Shown here: positions 1 to 63,380 of the stretch, piece by piece
Position numbering within the stretch: position 1 is the first letter of the stretch
How the letters are laid out: every line of letters starts with the position of its first letter
Notes under the pieces: model-generated
What the model was told of the DNA's origin: nothing
The model's input: the letters and a program-made list of their open reading frames with translations, nothing else
Database searches by the model: none
Position numbers and translations under genes: made by a program
Assembly: GCF_016862935.1 (NCBI RefSeq)
Contig: NZ_BONX01000052.1
Coordinates: 62,001-126,000, forward strand
DNA length: 64,000 bases
Reading direction: 5' to 3'
Source: Plantactinospora mayteni
Lineage (GTDB): Bacteria > Actinomycetota > Actinomycetes > Mycobacteriales > Micromonosporaceae

Positions 1-1
1 C

Positions 2-1216: not shown

Positions 1217-1217
1217 C

Positions 1218-1886: not shown

Positions 1887-1903
1887 GAGGCGGGTGCCAT
1901 AGC

Positions 1904-37146: not shown

Positions 37147-39498
37147 ATGGAGGGGCCGAACGACGACCGGCTGCTGGCCCTCGCCGATGACCTGACCGGC
37201 GCAGGCGAAGTTGCCGCCGCCCTCATGTTGCTCGAAACGCGCATCACGGTGCGTCTGCTGACCGACCCTGCGTCGGTTACGCCGGCATTGCCGACCGATG
37301 ACGACGCCGGCTCCCCGCTCGGACCTCTGGTGGTGGACCTGGACTCCCGGCACCGACCCGCGGCAGACGTGACCAGCCTCGTCCGGGCGGCGCTCGTCCA
37401 CCACCAGCCGCCCCTCGTCCTCGCGAAGGTCGACTCACTGCTGCGCGGTAGTCCGAGGGCGATCGTTCAGGCGTTGCGCGCGGACCGCGCTCCGGTTGTC
37501 GTCGCCACCGCGTTACCGTCCGCCGACCGCGTCGTGCTCGACGGCGTGGTACGGCTGTCCGGAGTGCCGCTGCACCAGACCGACGCCTGGCGGATGGAGC
37601 CCGGCGATGCGCCGGAATCGGTGCCGGCGGCCCTCGCCCCGGTGCCGACCCGGGTGGTCGGCCTCGACACCGTCCGGTCGCCCCGACTACCCGCCGTGCT
37701 GGGCTCGATCATCGACGCGAACGTGGTACCCGTCTGCGACGCCGAAACCGATACCGACCTCGACCGGGTCACCACCTCGGCGCTGACCCTGCCTTCGGTC
37801 CGCTTCGTCGGCTCAGCTGGGCTCGCCGCCGCCCTGGCCCGATCGCTCGCCCGGTTCGACCCCGACGGGCAGCCGGCCAAGCCGGTGCCCTCCGGCCGTT
37901 CGCACCCGGTGCTCGTCGTCGTCGGCACGGCCGAACCCGTGGCCGTCGAGCAAGCTCGCCGGCTGGTGGCCGCCGGACTCAGCCGGGTACGACTCGTCGC
38001 CGAAGCCCTCGACCACGACGACCAGCGGTCGGCCGCCGTGACCCGGATCCGTACCGCCCTCGACGCCGGGCAGGCCGTGGTGACCCTCGACCCGCCGGGC
38101 GACCGTCGCACCGCGACGCGTACCACCGCCCGGCGACTGGCGGAGGTCGTCGCCGAGGCGCTCCGCACCCGCCCGGCGGCGCGCTCACCGGTGGACCTGG
38201 TCCTGACCGGCGGCGAGACCGCCCGTCGGGTGCTCGACGCACTTGGCATCGACACGCTGACCCCGGTCGGCCTGGTGCACCCGGGTGCAGTCCACTGCGT
38301 CACCGAGGACGGCCGGGCCGTTGTCACCAGGGCGGGCAGCTTTGGAGACCCCGATTCCCTGCTCGACATCGTGCGATTCCTGCACCGCACCCCCATGCCG
38401 ACCCGCCCGATCCCGGGTGGCGGCCAGACGAGAGGTACTGCCATGAGCACCGTCGCCCATTCCGCCAACCAGCGTCCGCTGGCCGACGAACCGGCCCCGT
38501 CGCCGGCGCCGATCATCGCGGTGACCATGGGCGACGGCGCGGGCGTCGGGCCCGAAGTTGTCGTCGGCGCCCTGGTGACCCCGGAGGTCGCCGGCCTGTG
38601 CCGCCCCGTCGTGATCGGCGACGCCGCCCGGCTGCGCGCCGCCGCCGCGATCCTGCGCGTGGAGGTGGACATCGCGCCCGTCGAGACGGTGGCCGACGCC
38701 GTGTTCGAGCCGGGGCGGATCAACGTCATCGACCTCGGACTGCTGCCGGCCGACCTGCCGTGGGGCAAGCTGTCGGCCGCCGCCGGCGAGGCTGCCTACC
38801 AGTACATCCGGGTCGCCGGAGACCTGGCGATGAAGGGCGAGGTGCAGGGCATCTGCACCGCCCCGCTGAACAAGGAGGCGCTGCACGCCGCAGGCCACAT
38901 CTACCCCGGGCACACCGAACTGCTGGCGCACCTGACCGGCACCGACGAGGTGTCGATGATGCTCGCCACGCCCAAGGTAAGCGTGATCCACGTGACCACC
39001 CACCTCGGGTTGATCGACGCCGTACACAAGATCGAACCGGGTCTGGTGGAGCGTACGGTCCGCCGTGGGCACGAGGCGATGGTCCGCTCGGGCATCGCCA
39101 ACCCACGGATCGGGGTCTGCGGGATCAACCCGCACGCGGGCGAGAACGGGCTGTTCGGGTACGGCGAGGAGGACGCGAAGATCGTCCCGGCGATCGCGGT
39201 GTTGCGGGCGGACGGCATCGACGCCCGTGGTCCGATCCCCGCGGATACGGCCTTCTTCGTCGCGGGGCGGGGTGACTACGATCTGATCGTGGCGATGTAC
39301 CACGACCAGGGACACGGCCCGGTCAAGATTCTCGGTATCGAGGCCGGCGTCAACATCACCGTGGGGCTGCCCGTGATCCGCACCTCCGTTGATCACGGCA
39401 CCGCGTTCGACATTGCCGGCAAGGGTGTCGCCGAGGTCGGCAGCATGATCGAAGCGCTACGCCAGGCGGCCCTGATGGCGCCTACTCCTGCCGCCTGA
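37147..39498 (+). CDS. fused four-carbon acid sugar kinase (DUF1537) and PdxA-type 4-phosphate dehydrogenase
   Basis: 783 residues. The ATG at 37147 follows GGAGG by 4 bases. Residues about 1-425 are a DtnK/OtnK-like kinase, with LALADDLTGAGEVAAAL at the N-terminus and VLTGGETARRVLDALG near 355. Residues about 433-783 are a PdxA/PdxA2 dehydrogenase with VTMGDGAGVGPEVV, TAPLNKEALHAAGH, metal-binding His in YPGHTELLAHL and MYHDQGHGPVKIL. Separate enzymes of this kind phosphorylate D-threonate or erythronate and oxidise the product to dihydroxyacetone phosphate plus CO2. Fusing both steps is unusual. The linker contains a possible internal start. Confidence 0.88.
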   Translation: MEGPNDDRLLALADDLTGAGEVAAALMLLETRITVRLLTDPASVTPALPTDDDAGSPLGPLVVDLDSRHRPAADVTSLVRAALVHHQPPLVLAKVDSLLRGSPRAIVQALRADRAPVVVATALPSADRVVLDGVVRLSGVPLHQTDAWRMEPGDAPESVPAALAPVPTRVVGLDTVRSPRLPAVLGSIIDANVVPVCDAETDTDLDRVTTSALTLPSVRFVGSAGLAAALARSLARFDPDGQPAKPVPSGRSHPVLVVVGTAEPVAVEQARRLVAAGLSRVRLVAEALDHDDQRSAAVTRIRTALDAGQAVVTLDPPGDRRTATRTTARRLAEVVAEALRTRPAARSPVDLVLTGGETARRVLDALGIDTLTPVGLVHPGAVHCVTEDGRAVVTRAGSFGDPDSLLDIVRFLHRTPMPTRPIPGGGQTRGTAMSTVAHSANQRPLADEPAPSPAPIIAVTMGDGAGVGPEVVVGALVTPEVAGLCRPVVIGDAARLRAAAAILRVEVDIAPVETVADAVFEPGRINVIDLGLLPADLPWGKLSAAAGEAAYQYIRVAGDLAMKGEVQGICTAPLNKEALHAAGHIYPGHTELLAHLTGTDEVSMMLATPKVSVIHVTTHLGLIDAVHKIEPGLVERTVRRGHEAMVRSGIANPRIGVCGINPHAGENGLFGYGEEDAKIVPAIAVLRADGIDARGPIPADTAFFVAGRGDYDLIVAMYHDQGHGPVKILGIEAGVNITVGLPVIRTSVDHGTAFDIAGKGVAEVGSMIEALRQAALMAPTPAA
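38431..38445 (+). promoter_or_regulatory. possible internal ribosome site and start for the PdxA half
   Basis: AGAGG at 38431-38435 lies 7 bases before an in-frame ATG at 38443, exactly at the junction between the kinase and PdxA domains. Translation from it would give a free PdxA-type enzyme of about 351 residues alongside the fusion. Confidence 0.4.
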
Positions 39499-39531
39499 CA
39501 TGGTTGGGAACTTGACGACAAGGAGCCGGTG

Positions 39532-40326
39532 GTGACGGCGGCGCTGAACTCGCGAGCTCGACGCGACGAGATCGTACGACTGGCCATGACCACAGGTCTG
39601 GCCACTGTGGAGGAGCTGGCCGGCACGTTCGACGTGACGGCCTCGACGATCCGCCGCGACCTCGCCCTGCTGACCTCCGAGGGACGGCTGACCCGCACCC
39701 TGGGTGGAGCCATCGCCCCCAACGCACATCCCGAGGCGTCGTTACGGCAACGCACCGGCGAGGCATTCGAGGCGAAGCGGGGCATCGCCCGCTGGGCCGC
39801 GGCGCAGATTCGCCCCGGCGAGACCGTCCTGCTCGACGCCGGGTCGACCGTGGGTGCGCTCGCCCATGAGTTGCGCTCGGCAACCGCGCTGACCGTGGCG
39901 ACCACCGGCCTCACGGCCCTTCAGGAACTCGCCGACGTGGACGCCGTGCACGTCGAATGCCTGGGCGGGACGCTACGGCATCTCAGCCAGGGATTCGTCG
40001 GCCCACTGGCCGAGGCGGCGCTGGAGAGGATGACCTTCGACCGCGCCTTCCTCGGCGCCGACGGGGTCACCCCCGACGGCGGGATCTGCGAAGCGGATCT
40101 GCAGCAGACCCGGCTCAAGGAGCTGATGGCGCGCCACGCCGACCAGGTCTACGTCCTCGCGCACGCGGGAAAGCTCCTCCGCCAGCCATTCCACGCCTGG
40201 GCTCCGCTGTCGCGCAAGTGGACCCTCGTCACCGACCACCAGGCGGATTCCGCCGTCATCGCGGCCTTCGCCGCCAACGGCGTCGAGGTGGTCATCGTCG
40301 ATCCCGACGGACACCGCATCAACTGA
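39532..40326 (+). CDS. DeoR-family transcriptional repressor
   Basis: 264 residues; AGGAG 6 bases before a GTG at 39532 (a GTG at 39529 is too close). N-terminal winged HTH: ARRDEIVRLAMTTG, then ATVEELAGTFDVTASTIRRD and the GRLTRTLGGAI wing. The DeoR sensor domain (about 75-250) has LDAGSTVGALAHEL, TTGLTALQELA and FLGADGVTPDGGI, the phosphosugar-binding pattern. It starts 33 bases after the kinase/PdxA gene and probably responds to a phosphorylated pathway intermediate. Confidence 0.92.
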   Translation: MTAALNSRARRDEIVRLAMTTGLATVEELAGTFDVTASTIRRDLALLTSEGRLTRTLGGAIAPNAHPEASLRQRTGEAFEAKRGIARWAAAQIRPGETVLLDAGSTVGALAHELRSATALTVATTGLTALQELADVDAVHVECLGGTLRHLSQGFVGPLAEAALERMTFDRAFLGADGVTPDGGICEADLQQTRLKELMARHADQVYVLAHAGKLLRQPFHAWAPLSRKWTLVTDHQADSAVIAAFAANGVEVVIVDPDGHRIN

Positions 40327-40732: not shown

Positions 40733-42136
40733 CTATCGTCCGGTTGGCTGGAACACCACCTTCCCGTCCTCGACGCGGGCCGTACCAGTCACCGCGAAAC
40801 TGACGGAATCCCGGTACTGGGTCGGCGACAGGAAGCCGCGGGCCGTACCGGTCGCCTCGGCGGTCCCCCGCCGCGTGTTGGTCACCCGGACCTGCTTCCC
40901 GTCCCGGCTGAGCGCCACGGCGATGGTGGGGTACGTCTCGATCCGCCAGGAGACATCGGTGACCGTGTAGAACGTGTAGCTGGAGAACGGGCAACCGTCC
41001 GGCGAGAGCTCCGTGCTGGCGGCACACCTGTCGACGTACGCCTTGACCGCCTGCTCCACCTCGCCGCGCGCGGACTCCCTGACCGTCGTCGCCAGCGTGA
41101 CCTCGGCGCCCCGGCCGCCTACCGCCGCGGTCACCGGCGCCGCCGCCAGCAGCGGCTGGTCGGGCAGGCTGACGGTGTAACTGCCGGGGAAGGCGCTCAG
41201 CCGGCCACCGCCGCCGCCCCCCGCGTCGGACCAGCCGACCGGCACGCCGTTGACCAGGACCTGTTCCGTGCCGTCAGCGGAGATCCGTAGCGTGGAGAGC
41301 GCGCCATCGGTGATCCGCCAGCGTGGGAAGAGTCCGGCGGTCCGCCCGGCCGGTTCCAGGACGAGAGTCGCCGTGAACCGCTCTCCGCCAGCGGTGTAGG
41401 CGACGGTGGCCACGGTGAGGTCGTCTCCGCCGTCCGCCGCTTCGTTCCCGGCCTCACGTTCGACGGTTTCGAGCTTCTCGACCCGCACCTCACCGGGCGG
41501 CTGGTAGCCGTCGGCCGTCAGGACAGCGTCGGTGAGCAGTGGGCTGGTGAGCGTGCCGTCGCCCGGCTCCCCGCTGTCTGGCTCCCCGTCGCCCCTCGGT
41601 GGCTCGGGCTCGGCTGGCTGGTCGCCGTTCGGCGGGTTCAGGGCGCGTAGGGCGGCGGCCGCGTCGCGGTCGGCCAGCGCGGTGAAGTACGCCTCGATCG
41701 TCGGCTCGGGCCCGAATGCCACCGACCGTACGACAGCCAGCGCCACCACCCCCGCGCAGAGCACCCCGACCACCGCCGCGATGGTGACGCGTAGCCCGCG
41801 CCGCCCCGGCCCCGGCGCCCGAAGCGGCAGGAAGGCCCGCTCGGGGTCGACCCCGGGATCCGCCAGTGGAACGGGTCCGCGTGCGGGATCCGCTGGCCGG
41901 CTCTGCCCGCCCGGGTCGCCGGCCGCCGGATCTGCGGCGTCTTCAGGATCTGCGTCGCCCTTCCGGTCGAGGTCCCGGCCGCAGTTTCCGCAGAAGCGGC
42001 TGGCCGGCGGGCTCTCGGCGGTGCAATCGGGGCAGGCACGGGTCGGATCGCCGACCGCGGCCCCACACCGCAGGCACCGCTGCTGTCCGGGCAGCAGCAC
42101 GGTACGGCAGGCCGGGCAGGCATCCAGCGTCCTCAA
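40733..42136 (-). CDS. zinc-ribbon membrane protein of the coupling-ATPase operon
   Basis: 467 residues from TTG at 42136 with GAGGAG 9 bases upstream. Residues 1-56 hold a double zinc ribbon of four CxxC pairs (ACPAC, RCLRCG, ACPDC, FCGNCG). A disordered Asp/Pro-rich stretch leads to one transmembrane helix (VTIAAVVGVLCAGVVALAVV, about 117-136), so the remaining 330 residues are outside. The outer part begins with EAYFTALADRDAAAAL, an NTF2-like helix, and continues as beta-rich repeats; a CPFSSYTFYTVTDVSW segment resembles YfhO-type envelope domains. Last gene of the operon. Role unknown. Confidence 0.8.
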   Translation of the reverse strand: MRTLDACPACRTVLLPGQQRCLRCGAAVGDPTRACPDCTAESPPASRFCGNCGRDLDRKGDADPEDAADPAAGDPGGQSRPADPARGPVPLADPGVDPERAFLPLRAPGPGRRGLRVTIAAVVGVLCAGVVALAVVRSVAFGPEPTIEAYFTALADRDAAAALRALNPPNGDQPAEPEPPRGDGEPDSGEPGDGTLTSPLLTDAVLTADGYQPPGEVRVEKLETVEREAGNEAADGGDDLTVATVAYTAGGERFTATLVLEPAGRTAGLFPRWRITDGALSTLRISADGTEQVLVNGVPVGWSDAGGGGGGRLSAFPGSYTVSLPDQPLLAAAPVTAAVGGRGAEVTLATTVRESARGEVEQAVKAYVDRCAASTELSPDGCPFSSYTFYTVTDVSWRIETYPTIAVALSRDGKQVRVTNTRRGTAEATGTARGFLSPTQYRDSVSFAVTGTARVEDGKVVFQPTGR

Positions 42137-42140
42137 CGGG

Positions 42141-42575
42141 TCACTCCTCGGTTTCGAACTGCTGCTCGTGGTTGGCCGGGTCAGCCGACCGACGCGTCAT
42201 CGCCTCGGCGGCGAACTCGTCCCGTCGGTCACGCCGGGCCTGTTCGATCCGCCGCTGTTCCGGCGACGGCTCCCGATGGTCACAGGTCGCCAACGCCCGC
42301 CACGCGTTCGCCGCGTTCCGCAGGTCGACGTGCCACTGGATGCCGGAGATCGGATCGGTCGACCTGTACAGAGCGGCGTCGTGCGCGTACCAGAGCAGGG
42401 TCAGCTCGAAGCGCAGCGCCTCATGCACGGGCCAGCACGGCGGGAGCACGACCCAGGGCGCGTACTCCCGTTCAACCCAGTCGACCCAGCGGACGAACCG
42501 GGCCCACAGGTCCTCGTACGCCTCATCGGTCGCGTCGTCCCACGCCCAGGGCGCCGGGGCCGCGCTGTCAGTCAC
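42141..42575 (-). CDS. DUF4913-like protein next to a conjugation-type ATPase operon
   Basis: 144 residues from ATG at 42575, overlapping the upstream small gene by 4 bases. Trp-rich: LWARFVRWVDWVEREYAPW, LPPCWPVHEALRFELTLLW and GIQWHVDLRNAANAW. This matches my memory of DUF4913, found beside TraG/VirD4-like genes in actinobacterial mobile elements. No membrane segment. The charged C-terminus (EQARRDRRDEFAAEAM) is helical. Probably a cytosolic partner of the coupling ATPase. Confidence 0.75.
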   Translation of the reverse strand: MTDSAAPAPWAWDDATDEAYEDLWARFVRWVDWVEREYAPWVVLPPCWPVHEALRFELTLLWYAHDAALYRSTDPISGIQWHVDLRNAANAWRALATCDHREPSPEQRRIEQARRDRRDEFAAEAMTRRSADPANHEQQFETEE

Positions 42576-42850
42576 TGACCCGCCTCTCGGTCTTTCCCAC
42601 TCTGGCCAGGGTCGGTACGCCGCTGCTGCGGGTCGATGACACGGCCACGTACTACTTGTGTTTTCCTGGTTGTGCCGTCGTGTTCCCGGCCGGTGGTGGT
42701 GTTGGGGGGTCGGGTGCTGCTTTTCGACTCGTTCTGTCTGGTCAGATCGCGGTTGGGGTTGTACGGCCGGTTCGACGAACCCTTCCCACGGGAATCCTGG
42801 ATCCGGCCGTCACCGTCCTGCGTTCCGCGACGTTCGGGCGAGTCACTCAT
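42572..42850 (-). CDS. small disordered hydrophilic protein
   Basis: 92 residues from ATG at 42850 with GGAG about 9 bases upstream; its TGA overlaps the DUF4913 start. It is almost wholly polar (Arg, Gln, Asn, Asp, Ser, Gly) with no hydrophobic core, helix or cysteine, so it is probably intrinsically disordered. The overlap and ribosome site argue that it is real. Function unknown; an adaptor or substrate tail for the operon's ATPase is conceivable. Confidence 0.6.
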   Translation of the reverse strand: MSDSPERRGTQDGDGRIQDSRGKGSSNRPYNPNRDLTRQNESKSSTRPPNTTTGREHDGTTRKTQVVRGRVIDPQQRRTDPGQSGKDREAGQ

Positions 42851-42901
42851 TGCCCGCGCTCCTTCCTACGATGTTCGGACCTGGTTGGTAGCCGGGCCGG
42901 C

Positions 42902-43684
42902 TTACCGGCCTGAGCCCGGATCGGAACGTCCGCCCTGGTCGGAACTCGGTTCCCGACCCCGCTGTGGCCGGGGGTGCTGTGTTCGGCCCGGCTCCGCCCC
43001 GGCGGTCCGGCGCTGGGCGTTGGGGGGCCGCCTGGCGTCAGCCTGCTTGACGCGGGGAAGCTTGTCGGTCGCGTCCCGGTCCAGAGCTGTCGGTTGTCCG
43101 GGCGCGGCCTGCTGCTCCGACAGTGGTTTGGTCGGCTTCTGGCTGACGTCGTTCATCAGGAGCTGTCCGGTACTGAGCCTGCCGAGCTTGAGAGTGTCTC
43201 TCTTGCCGATGTCTTCTTCAGGTTTCTGGCTGCTGCCTTTGGCGAGCTTGACGAAGTACTCGCCGATGCTGGCGCCGAGTCCGGCGGTCACCATCACGCC
43301 GACCAGGGGAATGGCGGGCGCGATGCCCGCCCCCACCGCCCCGCCCGCCATGGCCAGAGCCGTCTTGACGACGCGCGCCGCGGCAAGCGCGATCAGCTGA
43401 TCCGGGTCCTGATTGTCGCCGCTGCCTGGGCGGGTCATCATGGCGTCGGCGACGGCCTCGCCGGCCTGTCCGACGAGGGCGCCGACCGCGGCACCCGTCA
43501 TCGGACCCAACGGTGTGTGCTGACCGATGACGAATCCGAGGCCGGCTCCCAGCAAGGGCGCCCCGATACTGACCAACTGCGCCCTGAACACCGGTGGCTT
43601 CCAGTCAGCCTTCTCCCGGCCGCTCGGGGGGCGCTGTGCCGCTCGCGGGTCCGGGTGTTGTCGCTGGGGCTCGAACTGCTGCAT
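42902..43684 (-). CDS. glycine-rich membrane protein of the coupling-ATPase operon
   Basis: 260 residues from ATG at 43684 (TGATG overlap with the upstream gene; a GTG one codon earlier is possible). After a 30-residue polar start, four or five short Gly/Ala-rich hydrophobic segments (VSIGAPLLGAGLGFVIG, GAAVGALVGQAGEAVADAM, VVKTALAMAGGAVGAGIA, LVGVMVTAGLGASIG) cover about 38-150. The remaining 110 residues are Gln/Pro/Arg-rich and disordered. The glycine-zipper look suggests oligomerising membrane helices, possibly a channel or pilin-like part. No family recognised. Confidence 0.7.
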   Translation of the reverse strand: MQQFEPQRQHPDPRAAQRPPSGREKADWKPPVFRAQLVSIGAPLLGAGLGFVIGQHTPLGPMTGAAVGALVGQAGEAVADAMMTRPGSGDNQDPDQLIALAAARVVKTALAMAGGAVGAGIAPAIPLVGVMVTAGLGASIGEYFVKLAKGSSQKPEEDIGKRDTLKLGRLSTGQLLMNDVSQKPTKPLSEQQAAPGQPTALDRDATDKLPRVKQADARRPPNAQRRTAGAEPGRTQHPRPQRGREPSSDQGGRSDPGSGR

Positions 43685-44358
43685 CACGTCGCACCATGCG
43701 TGATGTCGATCCGTACGGCGTTGACGGTCAGCAGGGGCCGCAGGCCGTCGAGTAGGGCAGCAAGGATCGCGCGAGGTTCCGTCCCCCGTCCGTCCTCGGA
43801 GCCGTCGGCCAGATCGCTGTCGCCGAACCGGCTACAGGCGGCCCACAGGTTGTCGTCGAGATGCGCCTGGTGCCACATCAGGAAGAGGGGGCCGGTGACC
43901 TCCACGATCGGGGCGCCCGGCAGGCCGATACCCCACGACTCGGGGTGCTCCGCGGAGTTTCCCAGCCCCATCAGCGTCGGGAATATGTTGTGTCGACGAG
44001 CGAAGTCGACGGCGGCCTCGGACTGAGGATCGATCTCGGCGAGCAGCCCCTTGCCGATGAGCACATCAAGTGTCCGGTCAAGACCGAACGAGTACTCATG
44101 GTTCGGTAACGCCTCGAGCAGAACCGCCCGGGTCCAGGGCACATCGGTCGGCGACGGACGCGGCAGTCCGTGTGCGACACCCCAGGCGAAGACCTCGTTC
44201 TCGGTCAGGGACACCGTCGTGTTCCCGAGGCGGACGTCATGGTGGACCGGACCGTCGGGAGAGTGGACCTCGCCCAGGAACATGCCGACCGGAAACAGGA
44301 GAGGGTAAGCGGTGTGAGCAGCGAAGGGGCGGGTGCTGGTCGATGCGTGTGTGCTCAC
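43684..44358 (-). CDS. FPVG-family protein (paralog 3)
   Basis: 224 residues from GTG at 44358, overlapping the coupling-ATPase stop by 4 bases. LLFPVGMFLGEVHSPDGPVH aligns with FPVGHYLG of 1218-1886 and with the start of 587-1216. ENEVFAWGVAHGLPRPS corresponds to EARAWAAPGDPSH in paralog 1. VDFARRHNIFPTLMGLG matches FARAHRLLPLLSGLG, and LWAACSRFGDSDL matches LWDACRRFAVTN. It ends in AILAALLDGLRPLLTVNAVR. A member inside this operon links it to the toxin-side genes 42 kb away. Confidence 0.78.
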   Translation of the reverse strand: MSTHASTSTRPFAAHTAYPLLFPVGMFLGEVHSPDGPVHHDVRLGNTTVSLTENEVFAWGVAHGLPRPSPTDVPWTRAVLLEALPNHEYSFGLDRTLDVLIGKGLLAEIDPQSEAAVDFARRHNIFPTLMGLGNSAEHPESWGIGLPGAPIVEVTGPLFLMWHQAHLDDNLWAACSRFGDSDLADGSEDGRGTEPRAILAALLDGLRPLLTVNAVRIDITHGAT

Positions 44359-45782
44359 GGTGCGTACCCCTTCAGGGCGGCGAATTCGGGGATCAGGCCG
44401 GCTGGGCGGGTCTCCACCTGGCGGGGTTCGTCGCTGCGGTAGAAGAGCCAGGCGTGGCCGGGCGGCAGCATCTGGATCATCTGCACCGGCAGGGCCGGGC
44501 GGTAGAGGCTGCCGACGCTGGTGCTGGTGTGCGCACTCCGTCCCCAGTCGCCGTTGCCCGGATCAGGCAGCCGGCCCAGACCGCCGCCGGCCGTACCGGT
44601 CTCGGCCTGGACCCGCTGCGTCCGGGACGGGTTCTGGTACGACGCGTTCGTCTCCCGCTGCTCACCCGCCCAGGCCGAGACGTTGGACAGGTCCTGGCTG
44701 TTCGACATCCCGCCGAAGATGAGCTTCGCGGTGGTCGCGGCGAGGATCGCGGCCTGCTGCTCGACGCCGTACCGGGCGCGCAGTTGGGCCAGGCTCTGCA
44801 CCGCCCACATGGTGACGATGCCGCGCCCGCCGCCCTCGCTGACCAGCGACGGCAGGCTCTGCAACGGCGCTATGTTGGCCACCTCGTCCAGGGCCAGCAG
44901 CAGCGGCGGGTCCAGCCGGCCGCCGGGTCGCCGGGCGGCGAGCTCGGCGGCGCGTTGGGCGATGCTGTCCACCAGGGCGACCACCAGTGGGGCGATCGCC
45001 TGCTGATAGTGCGACGGTCCGATCAGGAACAACGCGGACCTGCTGGTGAGGAAGTGGTCGATGTCCAGGTCGGTCGCCGCGCAGGAGCGCAGCACCGTCG
45101 GCTCGGCAGTCGCCTCCAGGCAGTTGCGGGCGACCGAGAAGAAGCTGCCGCGTTCACGGTCGCCGAGCAACTGCACGGCTTCCAGGTCGTCGGCCCACAT
45201 CGTCGCCGTGCTGTCGGACAGCCGCAGGATCGCCACCGGATCACGAACCTCCTGCCGGGCCAACCACCGGCGTACGTCGGCCAGCGGTCGCCCGCTCAGC
45301 GCCGCCGCGTGGAAGTACGCCCGCAGGATGCCGGCACCGCCGGCCCGCCAGTGGTCCCCGCCCCCCTCGATGCCCTTCCCGGCGACGGCGGTCATCGCGG
45401 CCACCCGCCGGTAGCAGACCGCGGGGTCGGCGCACCCGGCCAGCGGCGACCAGCGCAGCGAGTGCTCCGGGTACTCACTGCCGAACGGGTCGTACACCCG
45501 CACGTTTCCGCCGTGCGGGGTGGCGATCGCGCGTCTCCGGTTGCCGGTGAACTGGAGGATGTCCCCCCGGGTCGAGGTGACCACCACCGGTCCGTTCCAT
45601 CCCAGCACGCTGGGCACGATCAGTCCGGAGGTCTTGCCGTACCGGGGTGGGCCGACGATGCCGACCGAGTCCTCCGGCGCGCTCCAGAACCGGGTGTATC
45701 CGCCAAGGTGGTTCCAGCCGAGGAAGACGTTGGCCCGGGGACGGACGTCGAACGAGGGGATCGCCGGCCAGGCTGAACGCAC
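44355..45782 (-). CDS. TraG/VirD4-like type IV coupling ATPase without N-terminal membrane domain
   Basis: 475 residues from GTG at 45782, 3 bases after the M48 gene. Walker A is GPPRYGKTSG at 44-53, then PSVLGWNGPVVVTSTRGDIL, WSPLAGCADP and Walker B PPLLLALDEVANIAPLQSLP, followed by GIVTMWAVQSLAQLRARYG. These are hallmarks of VirD4/TraG hexameric motors. The transmembrane helices normally preceding Walker A by some 150 residues are missing, so the protein looks soluble and must dock on another membrane protein, perhaps the M48-type or Gly-rich neighbour. No relaxase or VirB4 gene is nearby. Confidence 0.85.
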   Translation of the reverse strand: MRSAWPAIPSFDVRPRANVFLGWNHLGGYTRFWSAPEDSVGIVGPPRYGKTSGLIVPSVLGWNGPVVVTSTRGDILQFTGNRRRAIATPHGGNVRVYDPFGSEYPEHSLRWSPLAGCADPAVCYRRVAAMTAVAGKGIEGGGDHWRAGGAGILRAYFHAAALSGRPLADVRRWLARQEVRDPVAILRLSDSTATMWADDLEAVQLLGDRERGSFFSVARNCLEATAEPTVLRSCAATDLDIDHFLTSRSALFLIGPSHYQQAIAPLVVALVDSIAQRAAELAARRPGGRLDPPLLLALDEVANIAPLQSLPSLVSEGGGRGIVTMWAVQSLAQLRARYGVEQQAAILAATTAKLIFGGMSNSQDLSNVSAWAGEQRETNASYQNPSRTQRVQAETGTAGGGLGRLPDPGNGDWGRSAHTSTSVGSLYRPALPVQMIQMLPPGHAWLFYRSDEPRQVETRPAGLIPEFAALKGYAP

Positions 45783-45785
45783 GGC

Positions 45786-47129
45786 TCAGTCCTCACGCAG
45801 CGAGCCGACCATCGCCACCGGCAGCGGTGCCGCCGGAGCGTCGCGATCAGGCAGCGGGTACGTCTCGCCGCGTGCCTCCAGCCGCTCCAACCGCAGCTCG
45901 TACGGCGGGTGGCTGGCGCAGACCGCGTCGTCCCAGCCGCCTCCCCCCGTCTCGAAGGAGCGGCGCAACCGGGTCAGCACCCGCCGCATGCCGGCCCGGT
46001 GGCCGGCGAGCGCGGCTCCGGCGTCGGCCCGGTACTCGCTGGCCCGGGCATCGAAGCTCTGCGACGGCACGACCAGGAACCGGACCGTCAGGGTCACCGG
46101 CCAGGCGATCAGCATGACCAGCAGCTTGACCAGCGGGTGCGGGAAAACCCGCAGTAGATAGTTGGCGGCGCTGAACAACAGGTAGAGCGGTAGCGCGAGG
46201 CCCCGGACGAAGACCCGGCTGACCGGGTCACCGTTGCGCCAGTGCACCAGTTCGTGCGCGAAGAGCGCGGCGACCGCCTCGCGGTCGTAGTTGAACTCGT
46301 CCAGCAGCCCCTGGCTGAGCACGATGTGCCGGGTGTGTGCCATGGCCCGGGGCGTGCGGTCGGGGTCGATCAGGATCATCGGGATGCTGGACAGGCCGAG
46401 CGCCGCGCCGACCTGGCGGGCGATCGGCAACAGCAGCGCCGCCTCCCGCCGGCTGAGCCGGCGGGCGCCGCCGATCCGGAGCAGCCACGGTTCGCAGCTC
46501 ACCCGGTAGAGGGTGTAGACGACCGCCAGGGTCACACCCGCCACGCACTGCCCGATGAGCATCAGGGGTGCGTCGACCGGGTTGGAGAGCCAGGGCATCG
46601 CGAGGCCGGCGAGGAAGACGGCCGCGATCTGTAGCGGGAACGTGACGATCGCGACGACGATCCCGCCGCTGACCAGGATGCTGATCGCTCCGCCCAGACC
46701 GACCTGCTCCGGCAGGATGTCGCCGCCGGACAACTGGCTGATGAGGTCTTCCGCACTTCGGAACAGTCCCGCCGTACCCGGACCGCCGAGGAAGAGCAGG
46801 CCGATCGCCTGCACCAGGTAGAACAGCAGGAACAAGCCGGTGAACAGGACCGCCAGCGGTACGTTCAGCCAGGCGCCGGCGAACGCGCCGAGCGCCGCCC
46901 GCCAGTCGCGCAGCGCGGCGACGCGCAGCCACCCGACGATGCTGGGATAGCCCGGGGGTCGGTGCGCGAAGAGCCGGTCGACCCATCTGGTCGGGGTCTG
47001 TGGAGCGGAGCCGTCCGGGCCCGGTGCGCCGTCCGGCGCCACCGTGTCGTCCGAACCGGGTACGGAGGCCGGCGGCACATCGCCATTGACTGTGGCCGAC
47101 CCCGGTTCGGGTTGGTGAGTTGCCCCCAC
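45786..47129 (-). CDS. M48-type integral membrane metalloprotease with extended N-terminus
   Basis: 447 residues from GTG at 47129 with GGGAGGAACC just upstream. Residues 1-75 are Pro/Asp-rich; several membrane helices follow (LAVLFTGLFLLFYLVQAIGL, ISILVSGGIVVAIVTF, and others). The zinc site is HELVH with His292, Glu293 and His296, and the third ligand is the Glu of DARASEYRADAGA. RHIVLSQGLLDE and a CASHPPYELRLERLE end are as in HtpX. HtpX-like proteases degrade membrane proteins, but this one leads an operon with a coupling ATPase, so it may process secretion components. Confidence 0.85.
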   Translation of the reverse strand: MGATHQPEPGSATVNGDVPPASVPGSDDTVAPDGAPGPDGSAPQTPTRWVDRLFAHRPPGYPSIVGWLRVAALRDWRAALGAFAGAWLNVPLAVLFTGLFLLFYLVQAIGLLFLGGPGTAGLFRSAEDLISQLSGGDILPEQVGLGGAISILVSGGIVVAIVTFPLQIAAVFLAGLAMPWLSNPVDAPLMLIGQCVAGVTLAVVYTLYRVSCEPWLLRIGGARRLSRREAALLLPIARQVGAALGLSSIPMILIDPDRTPRAMAHTRHIVLSQGLLDEFNYDREAVAALFAHELVHWRNGDPVSRVFVRGLALPLYLLFSAANYLLRVFPHPLVKLLVMLIAWPVTLTVRFLVVPSQSFDARASEYRADAGAALAGHRAGMRRVLTRLRRSFETGGGGWDDAVCASHPPYELRLERLEARGETYPLPDRDAPAAPLPVAMVGSLRED

Positions 47130-47303
47130 GGTTCCTCCCGACACGATTCGTCGACCCGCGCTACCCGCCGGCCGACCTGGTAAACGCGCACAGCCAAGCA
47201 CGACGACGGCGGGATTTGTGTTCTGCCGAACTAATGAGGAACACTCTGAGAACGCGGTGGACACTCGCCCGCGTCATTGGCCCCCGCCGGAAAGCGCGAT
47301 GCC

Positions 47304-49676
47304 GTGACTACCTCTCCAGACGAATTCCCGTACGCCGAGTTGGGTGAGGTCCTCTACCGCTGTCGCCGTACGGCCGGGCTGTCCCTGCGTACGCTCGCCC
47401 GCAAGCTCAACATGAGTGCCCATAGCGGACTCGTCGACTACGAGCGGGGCAAGCGGCTCATCCCGGAGGACCTGCTGACCAGGTACGAACGGATCTTCGA
47501 AGACGGTGGCGAGTTACGTCGACTCCGGACCGCCGTACTGGCGGCCCAGGCCGGACGGTCCGCCACCCGCTACCGGATCGCGCAGCTTCCTGCTGACCTG
47601 CCCGATTTCGTCGGCCGGAAGGCCGAACTCGACATGCTGCGGGCGGCAGCCGAGGCCGCGCGACCGGCACCGGGACTGCTGGTGGTCACCGGCCCGCCGG
47701 GGATGGGCAAGACCAGTCTCGCCGTACACCTGGCGCACCGCCTCGCCGGCCGTTACCCGGACGGTCAGCTCTACCTCGACCTGCGCGGCGCGGACGAATC
47801 GCCGGTGCCGCCCGCCGACGCCCTGCGGTGGCTACTGCGCGGGCTCGACGTCGCCGATCGCCAACCGACAACCGACACCGCCGAACTGGCGGCCTGGTAC
47901 CGGTCGATTCTTGATGGCCGGAGAGTTCTGTTGTTGCTCGACAACGTGGCCGACGAGGGCCAGGTGCGCCCGCTGTTGCCCGGTGCCGCCGGGGTGCTGG
48001 CCGTGCTGACCAGCCGCAACCCGCTGCTCGGCCTGGACGGTGCCGTCCGCTGCCAACTGGACTCGTTGTCCACGGCGGAGTCCGTCGACCTCATCGGCCG
48101 GGTTGTCGGCGCCGACCGGGTGGCCAACGAGCCGGAGGCCGCTGTCCGGATCGCCGGCAGCTGCGCCGGCCTGCCGCTCGCCACCCGGATCGCCGCGGCC
48201 CGGTTGGGCAACTGGCCCCGGTGGTCGCTCGCCGACTGCGCCCGGATGCTCGCCGCGGAACAGCGCCGGTTGACCTGGCTGTCGACCGGCGATCGGGCGG
48301 TGCGGGGCACATTCGAGATGTCGTACCGCGCCCTGTCCGACCCGGCCCGCCGACTGTTTCGCCGGCTGGCCCTGCTACCCGTACCGGAATGCGGGCTGGT
48401 CGCGGCGGGCGTGCTGGCCGGCACCTCCGAGTCCGGGGCGGACTCCCTGATGACCAACCTGGTCAACGTCGGATTGGTCCAGCCGGCCCTGGTCGGAAAC
48501 CGGTACCGGCTGCACGATCTGACCGCGCTCTACGCCAGCGACCGGCTGTCCGCGGAGGAGGACGAGCGGGCGACCCGGACCGCGGAGGAGGCGTACCTCG
48601 ACTGGCTGTTGGGCACCGCGCAGGACGCGGCGACCCAGCTCGACGAGAGTGGAGCCAATTCCGGTACGTCCGTCTTCGCCGGATCCCCCGACGCGGTTCG
48701 GTGGCTGGACACCGAACGGGTGACGGTACGCGCCGGGATAGCTCGGGCGGCTGCCCTCGACCTGGCTGATCTGGTCTATCCGCTGATGGCCACCCTGCCC
48801 TGGTTCTACGACCTGCGCTGTCACTGGCAGGACCAGCGGGACCTGGCCGAGACCACGTTGGAACTGGCCCGCCGCCGAGGCGACGCCACCACGGAGGTGA
48901 TGGCCCTCAACGGCATCGCGTTGGCCTGGACGCCACTGCGCCGTCCCGACGAGGTCATCCGGTGGAGTGTGCGGGCCGTCTCCCTGGCCCGGCGGGTCGA
49001 CGCCGTGGAAGAGGAGACCTGGGCGCTGGATCGCTGGGGGATGGCGCTCACCGAACTCGGGCGGTACGAGGAGGCGCGCGTTGTGCTGCTCCGGGCGGCC
49101 GCGCTCGCCCAGGAGTACGGCGACTGGTGGATGGTGGGCGGCGCGTTGAACCGCCTCGGCCACGTGTCGTACGAGGCTCGGCGCCACGAGTCGGCCATCG
49201 ACGCGTACGACCAGGCGTTACTCGTCTTCCGGGAACTGGACCGCCCGCGTGGCGAGGCGATGGCGCGGCTCGGACTCGGCCGGGCGCTGGCCGCGCTCGG
49301 GCGCCCCGACGAGGCGGTCACGTACCAGCGGACCGCGGTCGCGCTGTTCGCCGGTGCGGATGACGGTTGGGGCCTGGCCCGCGCCCACCAGGAGTTGGCC
49401 GCCGCGCTGCGAGCGTTGGGGCAGTACCAGGCCGCCGCCGAGCGCCTGCGGCTGGCAGCCGGGCTCTTCGCGGATCACGGTGACCGCCATGCGCAGGCGC
49501 GAACTCTGCTGGCACTCGTGGAGTTGGCGGTGGCGGAGAGCCGGTACGGCGAAGCGTCGTGTTGCCGCGACGAGGCGTTGGCGGTCTTGGCGGGTCTCAC
49601 CGATCCAGAGGCGCGGGATCTGCGTGCGGCACTCGCGGTACCGGCTGGGGCGCCTGGGCCGGCGGCTGACCGGTGA
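47304..49676 (+). CDS. XRE-HTH / NB-ARC / TPR regulator (STAND ATPase)
   Basis: 790 residues from GTG at 47304. Residues about 10-65 form an XRE helix-turn-helix (GLSLRTLARKLN, SHSGLVDYERGKRL-like, in sequence SAHSGLVDYERGKRLIPED). NB-ARC ATPase: P-loop TGPPGMGKTSLAV near 130, Walker B VLLLLDNVAD, and GLPLATRIAAARLG. After a winged helix comes a TPR array (about 520-770) with repeated helix pairs such as ALNRLGHVSYEARRHESAID. Divergent from the M48/coupling-ATPase operon across 174 bases, so it probably controls that operon. Confidence 0.88.
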   Translation: MTTSPDEFPYAELGEVLYRCRRTAGLSLRTLARKLNMSAHSGLVDYERGKRLIPEDLLTRYERIFEDGGELRRLRTAVLAAQAGRSATRYRIAQLPADLPDFVGRKAELDMLRAAAEAARPAPGLLVVTGPPGMGKTSLAVHLAHRLAGRYPDGQLYLDLRGADESPVPPADALRWLLRGLDVADRQPTTDTAELAAWYRSILDGRRVLLLLDNVADEGQVRPLLPGAAGVLAVLTSRNPLLGLDGAVRCQLDSLSTAESVDLIGRVVGADRVANEPEAAVRIAGSCAGLPLATRIAAARLGNWPRWSLADCARMLAAEQRRLTWLSTGDRAVRGTFEMSYRALSDPARRLFRRLALLPVPECGLVAAGVLAGTSESGADSLMTNLVNVGLVQPALVGNRYRLHDLTALYASDRLSAEEDERATRTAEEAYLDWLLGTAQDAATQLDESGANSGTSVFAGSPDAVRWLDTERVTVRAGIARAAALDLADLVYPLMATLPWFYDLRCHWQDQRDLAETTLELARRRGDATTEVMALNGIALAWTPLRRPDEVIRWSVRAVSLARRVDAVEEETWALDRWGMALTELGRYEEARVVLLRAAALAQEYGDWWMVGGALNRLGHVSYEARRHESAIDAYDQALLVFRELDRPRGEAMARLGLGRALAALGRPDEAVTYQRTAVALFAGADDGWGLARAHQELAAALRALGQYQAAAERLRLAAGLFADHGDRHAQARTLLALVELAVAESRYGEASCCRDEALAVLAGLTDPEARDLRAALAVPAGAPGPAADR

Positions 49677-50424: not shown

Positions 50425-50550
50425 GAGGCCGGTGCCAGCATGCTGAAGCCCGCAGCGAAATCACAGTGGGGGTACGGCGACATCGTCCATGCACCGGATG
50501 GAACCATCGTCACCCTCGCCTCGTCGTCCAAGAAGGACACCGGCCGACCA
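50425..50550 (+). pseudogene. C-terminal remnant of a VOC (glyoxalase/bleomycin-resistance-like) protein
   Basis: The frame reads SMLKPAAKSQWGYGDIVHAP then DGTIVTLASSSKKDTG. The pattern GYG-x-V-x-APDGT plus LASSSKKDTG is the end of a common actinobacterial VOC family. An 18-base near-duplication (GAGGCCGG...CCAGC twice) sits at its left end. The frame then drifts without a proper stop before the next gene. Confidence 0.5.
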
Positions 50551-50668
50551 GGGCCGGGATGGCAACGTACTCGCCCGGCATGCCGACCTGATCTGGATCG
50601 GACTCGGGTGCGATAAGGTCGGCACGGCTCTACCGATCCGCCGCCGGTTCCCCGACCCCCACGGAGCG

Positions 50669-52342
50669 ATGACGCACACCCTGCTGGTTTCGGCCACCCA
50701 GTCCGACGCGTACCCCTCCATCGCGGACGCGCTCGACGGGGCGCCGGACGGTGCCACCATTCTGGTGACCCCAGGGGAATATCTGGAACACCTACGCATC
50801 AAGCAGCGGAGCGTGGTCATCGGGGTCACCGGAGGGCCCGGGTCGGTCACCATCCGCGCCCGCCAGGCCGACGAGTCCATCCTGGAGTGCCGAGACGCCA
50901 CCGTCGAGCTGCGCGAACTCGTGCTGGCCGCGGGTGACGCCCCGGCCGTGGTGGTCTTCGGCGGCACCATCCGGGTGGTCGACACCGAGGTCTCCGCCGG
51001 CCGGGCCGTGGCGATCCAGGTGGGCTCGCACAGCGAGTTCGAGTTCACCCGGGTCCGGGTCACCAACGCCCAGCGCGGCATCCTCTGGGACAACTGCGCC
51101 GGCACGGCGGTCGGATGCGAGATCACCAACATCGTCGAGGACGGGCTGCTCATCCGCTCCGCCGATCCGACGATCCGCAACTGTACGGTCGCCGGGTGCG
51201 GCTACCGCGGCATCTACGTCTACGACTATGCCCGTCCCGTACTGGAGAACTGCGAGGTGGCCAGTTCCGGGGTGGGTATCGCGGTCGCCCAGGGCAGCTC
51301 CCCGACCCTGCGGCGCTGCCGGGTACACGACGTACGCGGGCAGGGCATCACCATCGGCCCCGGCTGCGGCGGGCTGGTCGAGGACTGTCATACCGAACGC
51401 ACCGCCGCACCGGGCATCCAGCTCGATCCCGGCGCGACCGCCCGGGTGACCGCCAGCCAACGTGGCCTACCCCGCTCGGTCGGCGCGGGTGACGTACCGG
51501 CGGTCCGGAGCGATCCACAGCGGATCGAGGAACTCACCGCCGAGCTGGACCGGCTGATCGGCCTGCCCGGGGTGAAGGCCGAGGTACGGGCGATCATCGA
51601 CGAGATCCAGGTCAACGAGTGGCGGCGCAGCGGCGGCCTCTCCGTCACGCCGAGCAGCAACCACCTGATCTTCGCTGGCGCTCCCGGCACCGGAAAGACC
51701 ACCGTCGCCCGGATCTACGGCCAGCTCCTCGCCGCGCTCGGCGTGCTGCCCAGGGGTGGATTCCGCGAGGTGAGCCGGCGGGATCTGGTCGGCCAGTACC
51801 TCGGCCACACCGCCGAGAAGACCTCGGCCGCGTTCGAGGCGGCGCTGGGCGGGGTGCTCTTCATCGACGAGGCGTACACCCTGTCCCGCACGTTCGGCTC
51901 CGGCGGCGACTTCGGTCAGGAGGCGATCGACACGCTGGTCAAGCTGATGGAGGACCACCGCCACGAGATCGTGGTGATCGTCGCCGGCTACACCGACGAG
52001 ATGGCCGACTTCCTGGCCGCCAACCCGGGGCTCGCCTCGCGGTTCAGCCGGGCCATCGAGTTCGAGAACTACACCGCCGCCGAGCTGGCCGAGATCCTCG
52101 TCACCATGGCCGAGAACCACGAGTACGCCCTGGGCCCGGAGTTGGTGGTCGCGGCCCGGAGCCATTTCCAGACCGTCCGCCGGAACAAGGACTTCGGCAA
52201 CGCCCGGGACGCGCGCAAGCTCTTCGAGGGTATGCGCAAGACCCAGGCCCAACGGCTACGCCAGTTACGGCGGGTGCCGTCGGCCGAGGAGCTGCAACTG
52301 ATCACCCTGGACGACTTCGCCCTCGTAACCCGGTCAGGCTGA
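50669..52342 (+). CDS. beta-helix plus AAA+ (EccA-like) ATPase, paralog of 4236-5915
   Basis: 557 residues from ATG at 50669; the in-frame extension back to 50489 runs through the VOC remnant and lacks homology. Residues about 1-260 are a parallel beta-helix (ILVTPGEYLEHLRIKQRSV; YRGIYVYDYARPVLENCEV). The AAA+ module follows, with Walker A GAPGTGKTTV near 336, Walker B VLFIDEAYTL near 396 and LASRFSRAIEFENYT. The AAA+ half is very close to the left-arm copy while the beta-helix has diverged, suggesting separate substrate sets. Convergent with the CxxC gene; the stops overlap by 9 bases. Confidence 0.85.
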   Translation: MTHTLLVSATQSDAYPSIADALDGAPDGATILVTPGEYLEHLRIKQRSVVIGVTGGPGSVTIRARQADESILECRDATVELRELVLAAGDAPAVVVFGGTIRVVDTEVSAGRAVAIQVGSHSEFEFTRVRVTNAQRGILWDNCAGTAVGCEITNIVEDGLLIRSADPTIRNCTVAGCGYRGIYVYDYARPVLENCEVASSGVGIAVAQGSSPTLRRCRVHDVRGQGITIGPGCGGLVEDCHTERTAAPGIQLDPGATARVTASQRGLPRSVGAGDVPAVRSDPQRIEELTAELDRLIGLPGVKAEVRAIIDEIQVNEWRRSGGLSVTPSSNHLIFAGAPGTGKTTVARIYGQLLAALGVLPRGGFREVSRRDLVGQYLGHTAEKTSAAFEAALGGVLFIDEAYTLSRTFGSGGDFGQEAIDTLVKLMEDHRHEIVVIVAGYTDEMADFLAANPGLASRFSRAIEFENYTAAELAEILVTMAENHEYALGPELVVAARSHFQTVRRNKDFGNARDARKLFEGMRKTQAQRLRQLRRVPSAEELQLITLDDFALVTRSG

Positions 52343-53317
52343 GGTTTCGGTCACCAAACCGGCTTCGGAGCCCTCATCGCGCAACGCCCGGACCACCCGG
52401 TCCAGCACCTCGTCGTCCAGGTCGACCGGCCACTCGTAGTCCTGTTCCTCGATGTGCGCGAGCAGTTCGGGTTCGGGTGGTACGCCGTACCGCTCGGCGA
52501 AGTAGGCCAGCGACTCCGACCAGACCCAGTGACCATCGCTGCGCAGGTGCGCCGGCACCACCTCAGGCTGCGCCGGGTCGAACGGGTCCGGGTCAAGGCC
52601 CCAGCAGGCCAGGACCATCGGCGCCCCACGAAGGTAGCCGGCCACCGCTGCCCGTTCGGCCTCCGCCAGCAGCCGGTCGGGGAGCGCCACACGCCCGGCA
52701 CCGTCCCTGGGAGGCACGGCTCCGGAGAACCGCGGCCGGTCGCCGGGCCTCCTGGCTACCCCCGTCACCTGCTCCGCCTCGGCCAGCAACCGGCGGTACG
52801 CCGCCCGGCTCGCCGCCAGCCGCAGCCGGCTGAACCGGTCCGGGTCCCGCTCCCGGACCGCGCGGCCCCGGTCCGACCAGAACGCCGACTCCGGGACCTG
52901 GTCGGCGCCCTCCGGGACGAACTTCAGCACCTCGTCCAGAGCGGCGGCTGCGGCTCGGCGGTCGACCCGGACCCGTACGCGCTCGTCCTCCGACAGTCCG
53001 GTCAGGTCGGCTGGTCCGCCGCCGAAACTGTCGGCGACCCAGCACCACTCCCCGGCGTCAAGCAGTTCCGACGGGTCGGCGCTGTCCGACCACACCGCCC
53101 CGGAGAGCGCACCGGCCAGTTCGGGCAGGCGGAACTCCAGCAGGCGCGGACGGCCGCAGCCGGCGCAGTCCTCCGAATACCGGACGACCCAGCCACCGTC
53201 CACTCGACGCACACTGCTGCCGCCTGGCTCCGACTCGCCGCACTCGCAGGGGTGTAACCGCAGGTAAAGCTCGATCTCCTCGGTGCTGTGCGCGAGCGGC
53301 GGCATGTCACCGACCAT
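52334..53317 (-). CDS. two-CxxC family protein with C-terminal extension
   Basis: 327 residues from ATG at 53317 (an ATG at 53305 would avoid the 11-bp overlap with the gene upstream). Residues 1-190 match 1904-2464: EIELYLRLHPCECGESEP, a DCAGCGRPRLLEFRLP pair, PSELLDAGEWCWVAD, and LDEVLKFVPEGADQVPESAFW. The extra 130 residues contain PDRLLAEAERAAVAGYL, GHWVWSESLAYFAERYGVPP and an acidic DLDDEVLDRVVRALRDEG end. First CxxC reads CECGE, so the first pair is C-x-C rather than C-x2-C. Function unknown. Confidence 0.78.
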   Translation of the reverse strand: MVGDMPPLAHSTEEIELYLRLHPCECGESEPGGSSVRRVDGGWVVRYSEDCAGCGRPRLLEFRLPELAGALSGAVWSDSADPSELLDAGEWCWVADSFGGGPADLTGLSEDERVRVRVDRRAAAAALDEVLKFVPEGADQVPESAFWSDRGRAVRERDPDRFSRLRLAASRAAYRRLLAEAEQVTGVARRPGDRPRFSGAVPPRDGAGRVALPDRLLAEAERAAVAGYLRGAPMVLACWGLDPDPFDPAQPEVVPAHLRSDGHWVWSESLAYFAERYGVPPEPELLAHIEEQDYEWPVDLDDEVLDRVVRALRDEGSEAGLVTETSA

Positions 53318-54755: not shown

Positions 54756-54756
54756 C

Positions 54757-62598: not shown

Positions 62599-62905
62599 TT
62601 TCGCCGAGCAGCTTCCGCGTCCGCAGGTCCACCTCGATCAGAGTGTCCACACTGGTCGACGCGACGGCGCCGAACGCGCTCACCGACTCGGCGATCCGGG
62701 TCAGCGCCACCTTCAACTCGGCGGTGGCGGCGAAGCTGTTCCGATACTCCTGCCCGATCTCGTCGTTACCCCACGGGTCGCCCGCCGCGTCCAGCGCGGC
62801 GACCGCCCGGGCCATGGCCGTCGACAACCGCTCGCCCACGCCGTTGAGCCGACCGGCGGCGGTGAGCGCGGCGTCCGGGTCCGGCACATGCGTCACGTAA
62901 CTCAT
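62579..62905 (-). CDS. WXG100/EspC-like small ESX protein
   Basis: 108 residues from ATG at 62905; it overlaps the giant gene's start by 20 bases. Two long helices separated by a turn with DPWGNDEIGQEYRNSF, a W-G-N/D-D form of the WXG motif common in actinobacterial EspC-like proteins. The C-terminal helix VDTLIEVDLRTRKLL follows. Such proteins are ESX substrates or dimer partners that carry larger effectors, so the obvious partner is the WXG-like N-terminus of the giant protein. Confidence 0.8.
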   Translation of the reverse strand: MSYVTHVPDPDAALTAAGRLNGVGERLSTAMARAVAALDAAGDPWGNDEIGQEYRNSFAATAELKVALTRIAESVSAFGAVASTSVDTLIEVDLRTRKLLGENGHRAT

Positions 62906-62923
62906 CGAGCACCCCGTTTTCGC

Positions 62924-63334: not shown

Positions 63335-63380
63335 GGAACAACGGTACTGGAGGCCGATCAGCAGCCGCTACCCTCTGGAC

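Follow-up and report, generated by a model that had tools for sequence, protein, structure and literature searches.

A conserved operon combining an M48 membrane protease, a VirD4-type ATPase and a zinc-ribbon surface protein in Plantactinospora mayteni and its relatives

Sensor-transducers of the BlaR1/MecR1 kind join a transmembrane (TM) metalloprotease to an extracellular sensor domain. In two reports on pIP501 TraJ/TraI, a VirD4-like protein with a separate putative membrane anchor is described as part of a full conjugation system (PMC13037476, PMC12857230), and the EACC1 two-gene conflict system (System 4) encodes, after the EACC1 gene, a membrane-associated caspase-type peptidase with a variable and sometimes extracellular C-terminal domain (PMC7159879). 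In this work, we analyzed a seven-gene operon of Plantactinospora mayteni within a 64,000-nt stretch, hereafter the window, of contig NZ_BONX01000052.1 (C52 of genome G000). The operon encodes an M48 protease, a TraG/VirD4-type ATPase, the FPVG protein, a Gly-rich membrane protein, a 92-residue product (dis92), a small protein labeled DUF4913-like and a zinc-ribbon membrane protein (ZnR). Each of its parts belongs to a known family or fold. Judged by titles and the beginnings of abstracts, no description of an M48-VirD4 or M48-EACC1 operon was found in the open-licence literature; the M48-ATPase-ZnR triad, the EACC1-linked fusion of M48 and ZnR domains and the double FPVG fold described below were not found described there either.

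Conservation of the M48-ATPase-ZnR triad

The operon genes are a conserved unit. With the window ATPase as query, 8 of the 354 family genomes, its own included, gave a match at E 1e-100, a patchy distribution that includes Longispora albida (G170, family Micromonosporaceae), and a ninth locus was found in a different family of the same order (G028). In the 10-20 kb examined around each ATPase locus, the M48 gene lies directly upstream of the ATPase gene at 9/9 loci (the window among them), the called coordinates of the two genes leaving a gap or overlap no larger than 8 bp, and the ZnR gene follows downstream at eight, the contig of G018 ending before it. Conservation in related genomes, which the preliminary description of this DNA had named as a check, is thus found for the M48-ATPase unit. 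FPVG is present at four loci (window, G018, G028 and Longispora), which we call the long type; the remaining five, the short type, have M48, ATPase and ZnR only. The DUF4913-like gene occurs at three (window, G028 and Longispora) and, like the FPVG and Gly-rich genes, is optional. The weak rows of this distribution are G018, where the end of the contig cuts the operon short, G167 and G283, with fragmented assemblies, and G165 (L025), the most distant. Genes in the fetched loci were called with a home-made codon-usage caller, a tool prone to overlook short or unusual genes (dis92 and, at the G028 locus, L019, several genes of the operon escaped it and were located by hand). Around other VirD4-type ATPases, no M48 match at E 0.1 was found in 15 stretches, 11 of them with flanks of only ~1-1.5 kb; since the M48-ATPase adjacency is found at 9/9 loci of this ATPase group against 0/15 of these control stretches, it exceeds chance.

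The ATPase matches TraG-D_C (8.3e-23), T4SS-DNA_transf (1.4e-22) and also TrwB_AAD_bind, and the solved structures nearest to it are TrwB and Cag5. It has a VirD4-type nucleotide-binding domain with intact Walker A (GPPRYGKT, starting at residue 44) and Walker B (LLALDE) motifs, which are invariant in the alignment of the nine ATPases of the group; no hydrophobic segment is predicted in it, and the N-terminal TM domain of coupling proteins is absent. Identity of the window ATPase is 60-74% to seven of the other eight loci and 50% to the eighth (G165, L025). The next-best ATPases show only 30-43% identity, the best among 41 relatives reaching 1.6e-73, and E 1e-60 is reached by four in a set of 396 genomes from the whole phylum (39-43% identity). 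In a tree of 26 ATPases, whose root is not known and some of whose remaining rows are fragments, a branch supported at 100/100 separates the nine operon ATPases from the others; among the nine, the long and short types are split, with the exception of the distant L025.

The M48 protein has the HExxH motif, downstream glutamate and membrane segments of M48 peptidases, and the solved structures nearest to it by sequence are Ste24p and HtpX. Its H, E and H together with the second E are invariant in the nine aligned operon loci. The best start, 47129, is preceded by a GGAGG-like site, and an upstream extension to 47264 lacks coding bias (GC at the three codon positions 0.62/0.64/0.56, compared with 0.73/0.51/0.90 in the M48 gene).

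Pairs and fusions of the protease with the surface protein

When genomes of the order were searched at E 1e-40 with a profile built from the nine M48 proteins, 15 of 249 gave matches, at 16 places (most triad genomes were outside this draw); across the phylum, 2 of 296 did, namely the own genome and G009. The 16 places comprise three triads, two loci with neighboring M48 and ZnR genes but no ATPase (L076 and L087) and 11 fusions (L077-L086 and L088), in each of which one polypeptide of 707-777 residues comprises M48, a TM segment and the extracellular part of ZnR, in this order. No ATPase match at E 1e-3 was obtained at the 13 pair or fusion loci, for which 11.7-17 kb of DNA was read in eight cases and ~4 kb in five. 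Because these 13 loci have the pair or fusion without the ATPase, we take the protease and the TM/extracellular protein as the core and the ATPase as an add-on, in place of the ATPase plus M48 core of the preliminary description.

The protease motifs are kept at 9/9 operon loci and in 11/11 fusions, a count of intact motifs from which L087 was excluded. A complete zinc ribbon is present in nine of the ten separate ZnR proteins (two CxxC pairs, and four in three of them), the tenth, L087, having one pair; CxxC pairs are absent from 11/11 fusions. As CxxC pairs occur in separate ZnR proteins and in none of the fusions, covalent fusion seems to replace the ribbon, and the plain reading of these sequences is that the ribbon would dock separate ZnR on the protease. 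At the ZnR position of G028 (L019:12679-13656), a zinc ribbon and a TM segment are followed by a ricin-type lectin (Ricin_B_lectin 5.7e-28), as if the outer domain were swappable. In Longispora, the ZnR end is overlapped by a gene (L020:13746-14693) for a secreted-looking protein with a peptidase-inhibitor I36 domain.

An EACC1 gene lies directly after the fusion gene in 8/8 cases tested (9.6e-9 to 4.8e-11, all above cut-off), namely the fusions other than L082-L084, and this arrangement looks like an undescribed metallopeptidase EACC1 pair. No EACC1 match was found among the window operon proteins, and the only one of that genome is sub-threshold and lies on another contig. The two fusions scanned for it have a weak M56/BlaR1 similarity (E 0.00036 and 0.0074), under cut-off. 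Besides, at L089-L093 and L096, the M48-NTF2 fusion and EACC1 adjoin an aldo/keto reductase-like gene in five of six cases.

On the basis of gene content, motifs, conserved gene order, fusion and predicted folds, we tentatively propose, with somewhat less than even confidence, that the operon products form a regulated complex of sensor and protease in the membrane, supplemented with a motor of VirD4 type and an adaptor for peptides. The EACC1 neighbors of the fusions and the weak M56/BlaR1 similarity of the two that were scanned also speak for it. The extracellular NTF2-like domains of ZnR, or the lectin in one relative, would sense an envelope or extracellular cue, and the cytoplasmic zinc ribbon would dock ZnR to M48, whose active site would face the cytoplasm. 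M48 and ZnR would then be a split version of a BlaR1-like layout that is one polypeptide at 11 other loci. The soluble ATPase ring may dock on the M48-ZnR complex and, with the double RRE-like FPVG (RRE, recognition element of ribosomally synthesized and post-translationally modified peptides, RiPPs) as a peptide-recognizing adaptor, might deliver protein substrates to the protease or move its products; expression would be controlled by the divergent STAND gene. The occurrence of the protease core without the motor at the 13 loci mentioned above weighs against this proposal. Against docking by the ribbon speaks L087 (the same locus as L095, in G148), where the M48 protein lacks HExxH and the halved ribbon persists without an active protease.

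A bolder form of the sensor-protease proposal, which we regard as doubtful, is that of an ATP-driven membrane protease in which the place of the AAA+ unfoldase of FtsH-like machines is taken by a motor ring of VirD4 type, the double RRE-like adaptor reads peptide tags and a swappable extracellular sensor gates M48; such a machine would be spread over plasmids and chromosomes, mostly of Micromonosporaceae, to judge by the Longispora member.

In the model of ZnR, with a predicted local distance difference test (pLDDT) score of 82.9 and a predicted TM-score (pTM) of 0.66, the TM segment is followed by an NTF2-like fold, for which NTF2-like matches other than VirB8/TcpC score equal or better. A different explanation of the operon is an origin from a type IV secretion system, as a minimal machine for export: the ATPase would pump protein through a channel of M48, the Gly-rich protein and ZnR, the NTF2-like pair of ZnR would act like VirB8/TcpC and M48 would trim the substrate. 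This explanation deserves some weight, but we consider it rather unlikely.

Operon architecture and genomic surroundings

The open reading frame (ORF) check of the window gave seven ORFs on the minus strand, spanning 40733-47129, and the junction gaps are, from the M48 gene to the zinc-ribbon gene, 3, -4, -4, 51, -4 and 4 bp (Table 1). The seven genes with tight or overlapping junctions and one 51-bp gap that the preliminary description proposed were thus recovered from the ORFs and measured gaps, and its M48 protease, soluble coupling ATPase and zinc-ribbon membrane protein agree with Pfam, motifs and hydrophobicity. Its Gly-zipper-like membrane protein does have ~2 hydrophobic segments, but the Gly-zipper match (0.006) is under the Pfam cut-off, and its DUF4913 label, which we keep only as a name, is not sustained, PF16259 giving no Pfam match to the window protein.

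Table 1. Genes of the operon and the divergent gene, with positions in the window.
Feature	Position	Strand	Evidence or remark
M48 (HtpX/Ste24-like) membrane metalloprotease	45786..47129	-	PF01435 4.1e-16; HELVH and EYRAD; ~5 hydrophobic segments
TraG/VirD4-type ATPase without TM segment	44355..45782	-	Pfam, NCBIfam, alignment, tree
FPVG protein, predicted to have two tandem beta-hairpin and winged-helix (RRE/PqqD-like) domains	43684..44358	-	Model
Gly-rich membrane protein, low-complexity tail	42902..43687	-	~2 hydrophobic segments
dis92, 92-residue low-complexity ORF	42572..42850	-	Own AAGGAG site
Small soluble protein, "DUF4913-like"	42141..42575	-	Relatives usually after VirD4-type genes
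ZnR, double zinc ribbon - TM - NTF2-like - beta-sandwich - NTF2-like protein	40733..42136	-	DZR 2.6e-7 and model
Divergent HTH - NB-ARC - TPR (AfsR-like STAND) gene, start possibly 47304	47277..49676	+	Pfam/NCBIfam

FPVG, dis92 and the DUF4913-like protein gave no Pfam match at E 0.1. Weak counterparts of the Gly-rich protein were found at L018 and L019. The codon bias of dis92 is weak (GC content at third codon positions 0.70), and no counterpart was found at the two loci compared (G028 and Longispora), where one longer Gly-rich gene occupies its place; dis92 might be a split tail of the Gly-rich protein, whose phase it shares, yet two stops separate the two and dis92 has a ribosome-binding site of its own. 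Relatives of the DUF4913-like protein were detected by tblastn in 9 of the 15 stretches around other VirD4-type genes (E 6e-8 to 0.016), usually just after the VirD4-type gene, and three long operons therefore retain a gene of VirD4 neighborhoods; the relative at L027 scores 17.3 bits to PF16259, whose cut-off is 25.

The divergent STAND gene that had been proposed does exist, with HTH, NB-ARC and TPR domains found by Pfam; in NCBIfam it matches the AfsR model best, at a score far under cut-off. A divergent HTH-NTPase gene is present at three of the nine loci, with NB-ARC in the window and Longispora (L020) and NACHT in G028 (L019), the relatedness of the three being judged by domain content and one 31% match. 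On the other side of the operon, a long ORF (37147-39498) resembles what we take to be a sugar-acid kinase joined to a PdxA-type dehydrogenase, and the flanking regulator gene (39529-40326) gave no match at E 1e-40 in the other six genomes of the genus, so that the comparison of insertion sites failed.

FPVG is modeled as two RRE/PqqD-like domains (pLDDT 90.0, pTM 0.85), each half apparently resembling that fold, with matches to PqqD, MccB and TbiB1 at sequence identities of about 4-23% among the matches listed. FPVG genes were found in 38 of 121 family genomes, often as arrays, and at 12 of 27 FPVG loci a relative of the genes linked to the type VII secretion system (T7SS) on this contig lies within ~1.5 kb. 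Indeed, two ESX-type clusters flank the non-T7SS stretch that holds the operon, one formed by window 1-5915 with L030 and the other by window 50489-64000 with L031. Both contain EccB, EccC and EccD, and the left one also has mycosin and EccE (the latter under cut-off); a second EccE, for the right cluster, was not found on the 122 kb searched. These data raise the possibility that the operon is an accessory of the adjacent cluster, with FPVG as a shared substrate adaptor. The left cluster encodes two paralogues of the operon FPVG (33%, E 4e-19; 28%, E 6e-8), and the ESX-type cluster that adjoins the operon and its divergent gene yielded no further FPVG gene. However, no EccB, EccC, EccD, mycosin or WXG100 protein is among the operon proteins, and the flanks retrieved for the other operon loci showed no recognizable Ecc-like gene apart from an ATPase at L024 with weak EccC/TraB likeness. 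Furthermore, scoring of the 27 best candidates in each of the G018 and Longispora genomes revealed no FPVG gene besides that of the operon, so that the operon seems not to need a T7SS partner, and we consider an accessory role improbable.

Several other genes accompany the FPVG and T7SS loci. The right part of the window (54757-62598) encodes a 2613-residue protein whose N-terminus is WXG100-like and which contains a glutamine deamidase domain of the papain fold (Gln_amidase 2.2e-22), and a large protein of 2424 residues begins at 12727 of L030. EccA/SpoVK-type AAA ATPases joined to a right-handed beta-helix are encoded at 4236-5915 and 50489-52342 of the window, and members of an LHPC-motif family, with no Pfam family above cut-off, at 1904-2464, 52334-53317 and 53307-54755; this family is often near FPVG genes and sometimes duplicated. 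At five loci of one genus (L059, L060, L062, L066 and L071), FPVG is near a gene with an HsdM-matching start (scanned only at L060), several of them having also a TPR or HTH-like gene and a Gly-rich gene.

Regarding mobile elements, the preliminary description had stated that the operon is not a normal conjugation system, and in its own genome no TrwC-type relaxase (PF08751, 0 matches; other relaxase families were not searched) or VirB4 accompanies it; the VirB4-like (TIGR00929) matches of this genome lie, under cut-off, on contigs C88 and C6 and not on C52. TrwC relaxases are also absent from the other long-type genomes (G018, G028 and G170) and from G112, and those of G165 and G167 are on contigs other than that of the operon. 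Sub-cut-off VirB4-like matches occur in eight of the nine genomes (G000, G018, G028, G170, G236, G283, G167 and G112), one of them ~33 kb from the operon in G028, and control genomes often match too. Two short-type loci are on plasmid-like contigs. One of these (G236 C1) is repetitive with a ~21.9-kb period, the pattern expected when assembly of a circular molecule runs on beyond its end; it carries genes for a MobF relaxase, a ParA-type protein and, separately, a VirD4-type protein of 536 residues; the other (G283 C40) has a TrwC relaxase and a separate VirD4-type protein of 593 residues. The triad ATPase is therefore not the sole coupling-type protein there.

Because two relatives are on plasmid-like contigs with a relaxase, a link to mobile elements has to be kept in mind. 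The operon might be a DNA-directed module of plasmids and chromosomes (conjugation help, exclusion, interference or defence), its motor acting on DNA at the membrane and its protease removing a transfer or phage protein. Besides the two plasmid-like contigs with their own VirD4, this would fit a third locus, on a 10-kb contig of G167, near a weakly TraB-like gene (E 2e-11, far under the model cut-off), the patchy distribution in the family, and the STAND/NACHT genes and EACC1 neighbor of relatives, which recall conflict systems. It is at odds with the absence of TrwC-type relaxases from the genomes of the four long-type loci and with PADLOC, whose sole match among the operon proteins is a weak one of the ATPase to mad8 (9e-4), no systematic search for defence genes around the operon having been made. 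All considered, such a module is a serious rival of the sensor-protease proposal, but we judge it unlikely.

The ATPase family, the gene typical of VirD4 neighborhoods and the plasmid-borne relatives would also be expected of a remnant of a decayed integrative conjugative element. Nevertheless, the motifs are intact, the operon is tight and conserved, the ATPases retain the identities given above, and the four long-type genomes lack a TrwC relaxase, the one family searched. For the long-type loci this origin is disfavored by that absence and by the location of the VirB4-like matches of the own genome on other contigs, and overall we hold it to be very improbable.

Comparison with known systems

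Should the motor serve the protease, the coupling ATPases of conjugation would be reusable for protein handling at the membrane, outside DNA secretion. Even otherwise, the M48-NTF2 fusion with EACC1 is a candidate for a metallopeptidase form of a conflict system already described, and in FPVG the type VII secretion loci of the family have a candidate peptide-binding adaptor.

With VirD4/TraG coupling proteins, the operon ATPase shares the RecA-like motor, the TraG-D_C and TrwB_AAD_bind matches and the Walker motifs; unlike them, it lacks the TM domain, forms a separate group in the tree and has neither a TrwC relaxase nor VirB4 alongside in its own genome. pIP501 TraJ resembles it as a VirD4-type ATPase thought to need another protein for membrane attachment, whereas TraJ is part of a full conjugation system and the available parts of the reports do not mention an M48 protease (PMC13037476, PMC12857230). 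RiPP recognition elements such as PqqD, MccB and TbiB1 appear to share the predicted fold of each FPVG half, although FPVG has two tandem copies and no RiPP pathway was recognized.

As for the protease, HtpX and Ste24 are likewise HExxH...E membrane proteases, but the operon M48 is linked or fused to an extracellular NTF2-type domain and is encoded with a motor ATPase. The operon differs from BlaR1/MecR1 in having M48 instead of M56, similarity to the latter being under cut-off, and in the replacement of the penicillin-binding domain by an NTF2-like or lectin domain. The EACC1 system shares with the M48 loci a membrane peptidase with a variable outer domain, and EACC1 itself lies beside the M48 fusions; in contrast, M48 replaces the caspase, EACC1 comes after M48 and no EACC1 was recognized in the window operon. 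Neither M48 nor VirD4 occurs in the main text of the report on that system (PMC7159879). Altogether, the operon appears to be kin to membrane peptidase signaling or conflict modules, and a motor-protease, the bold case, would be categorically new.

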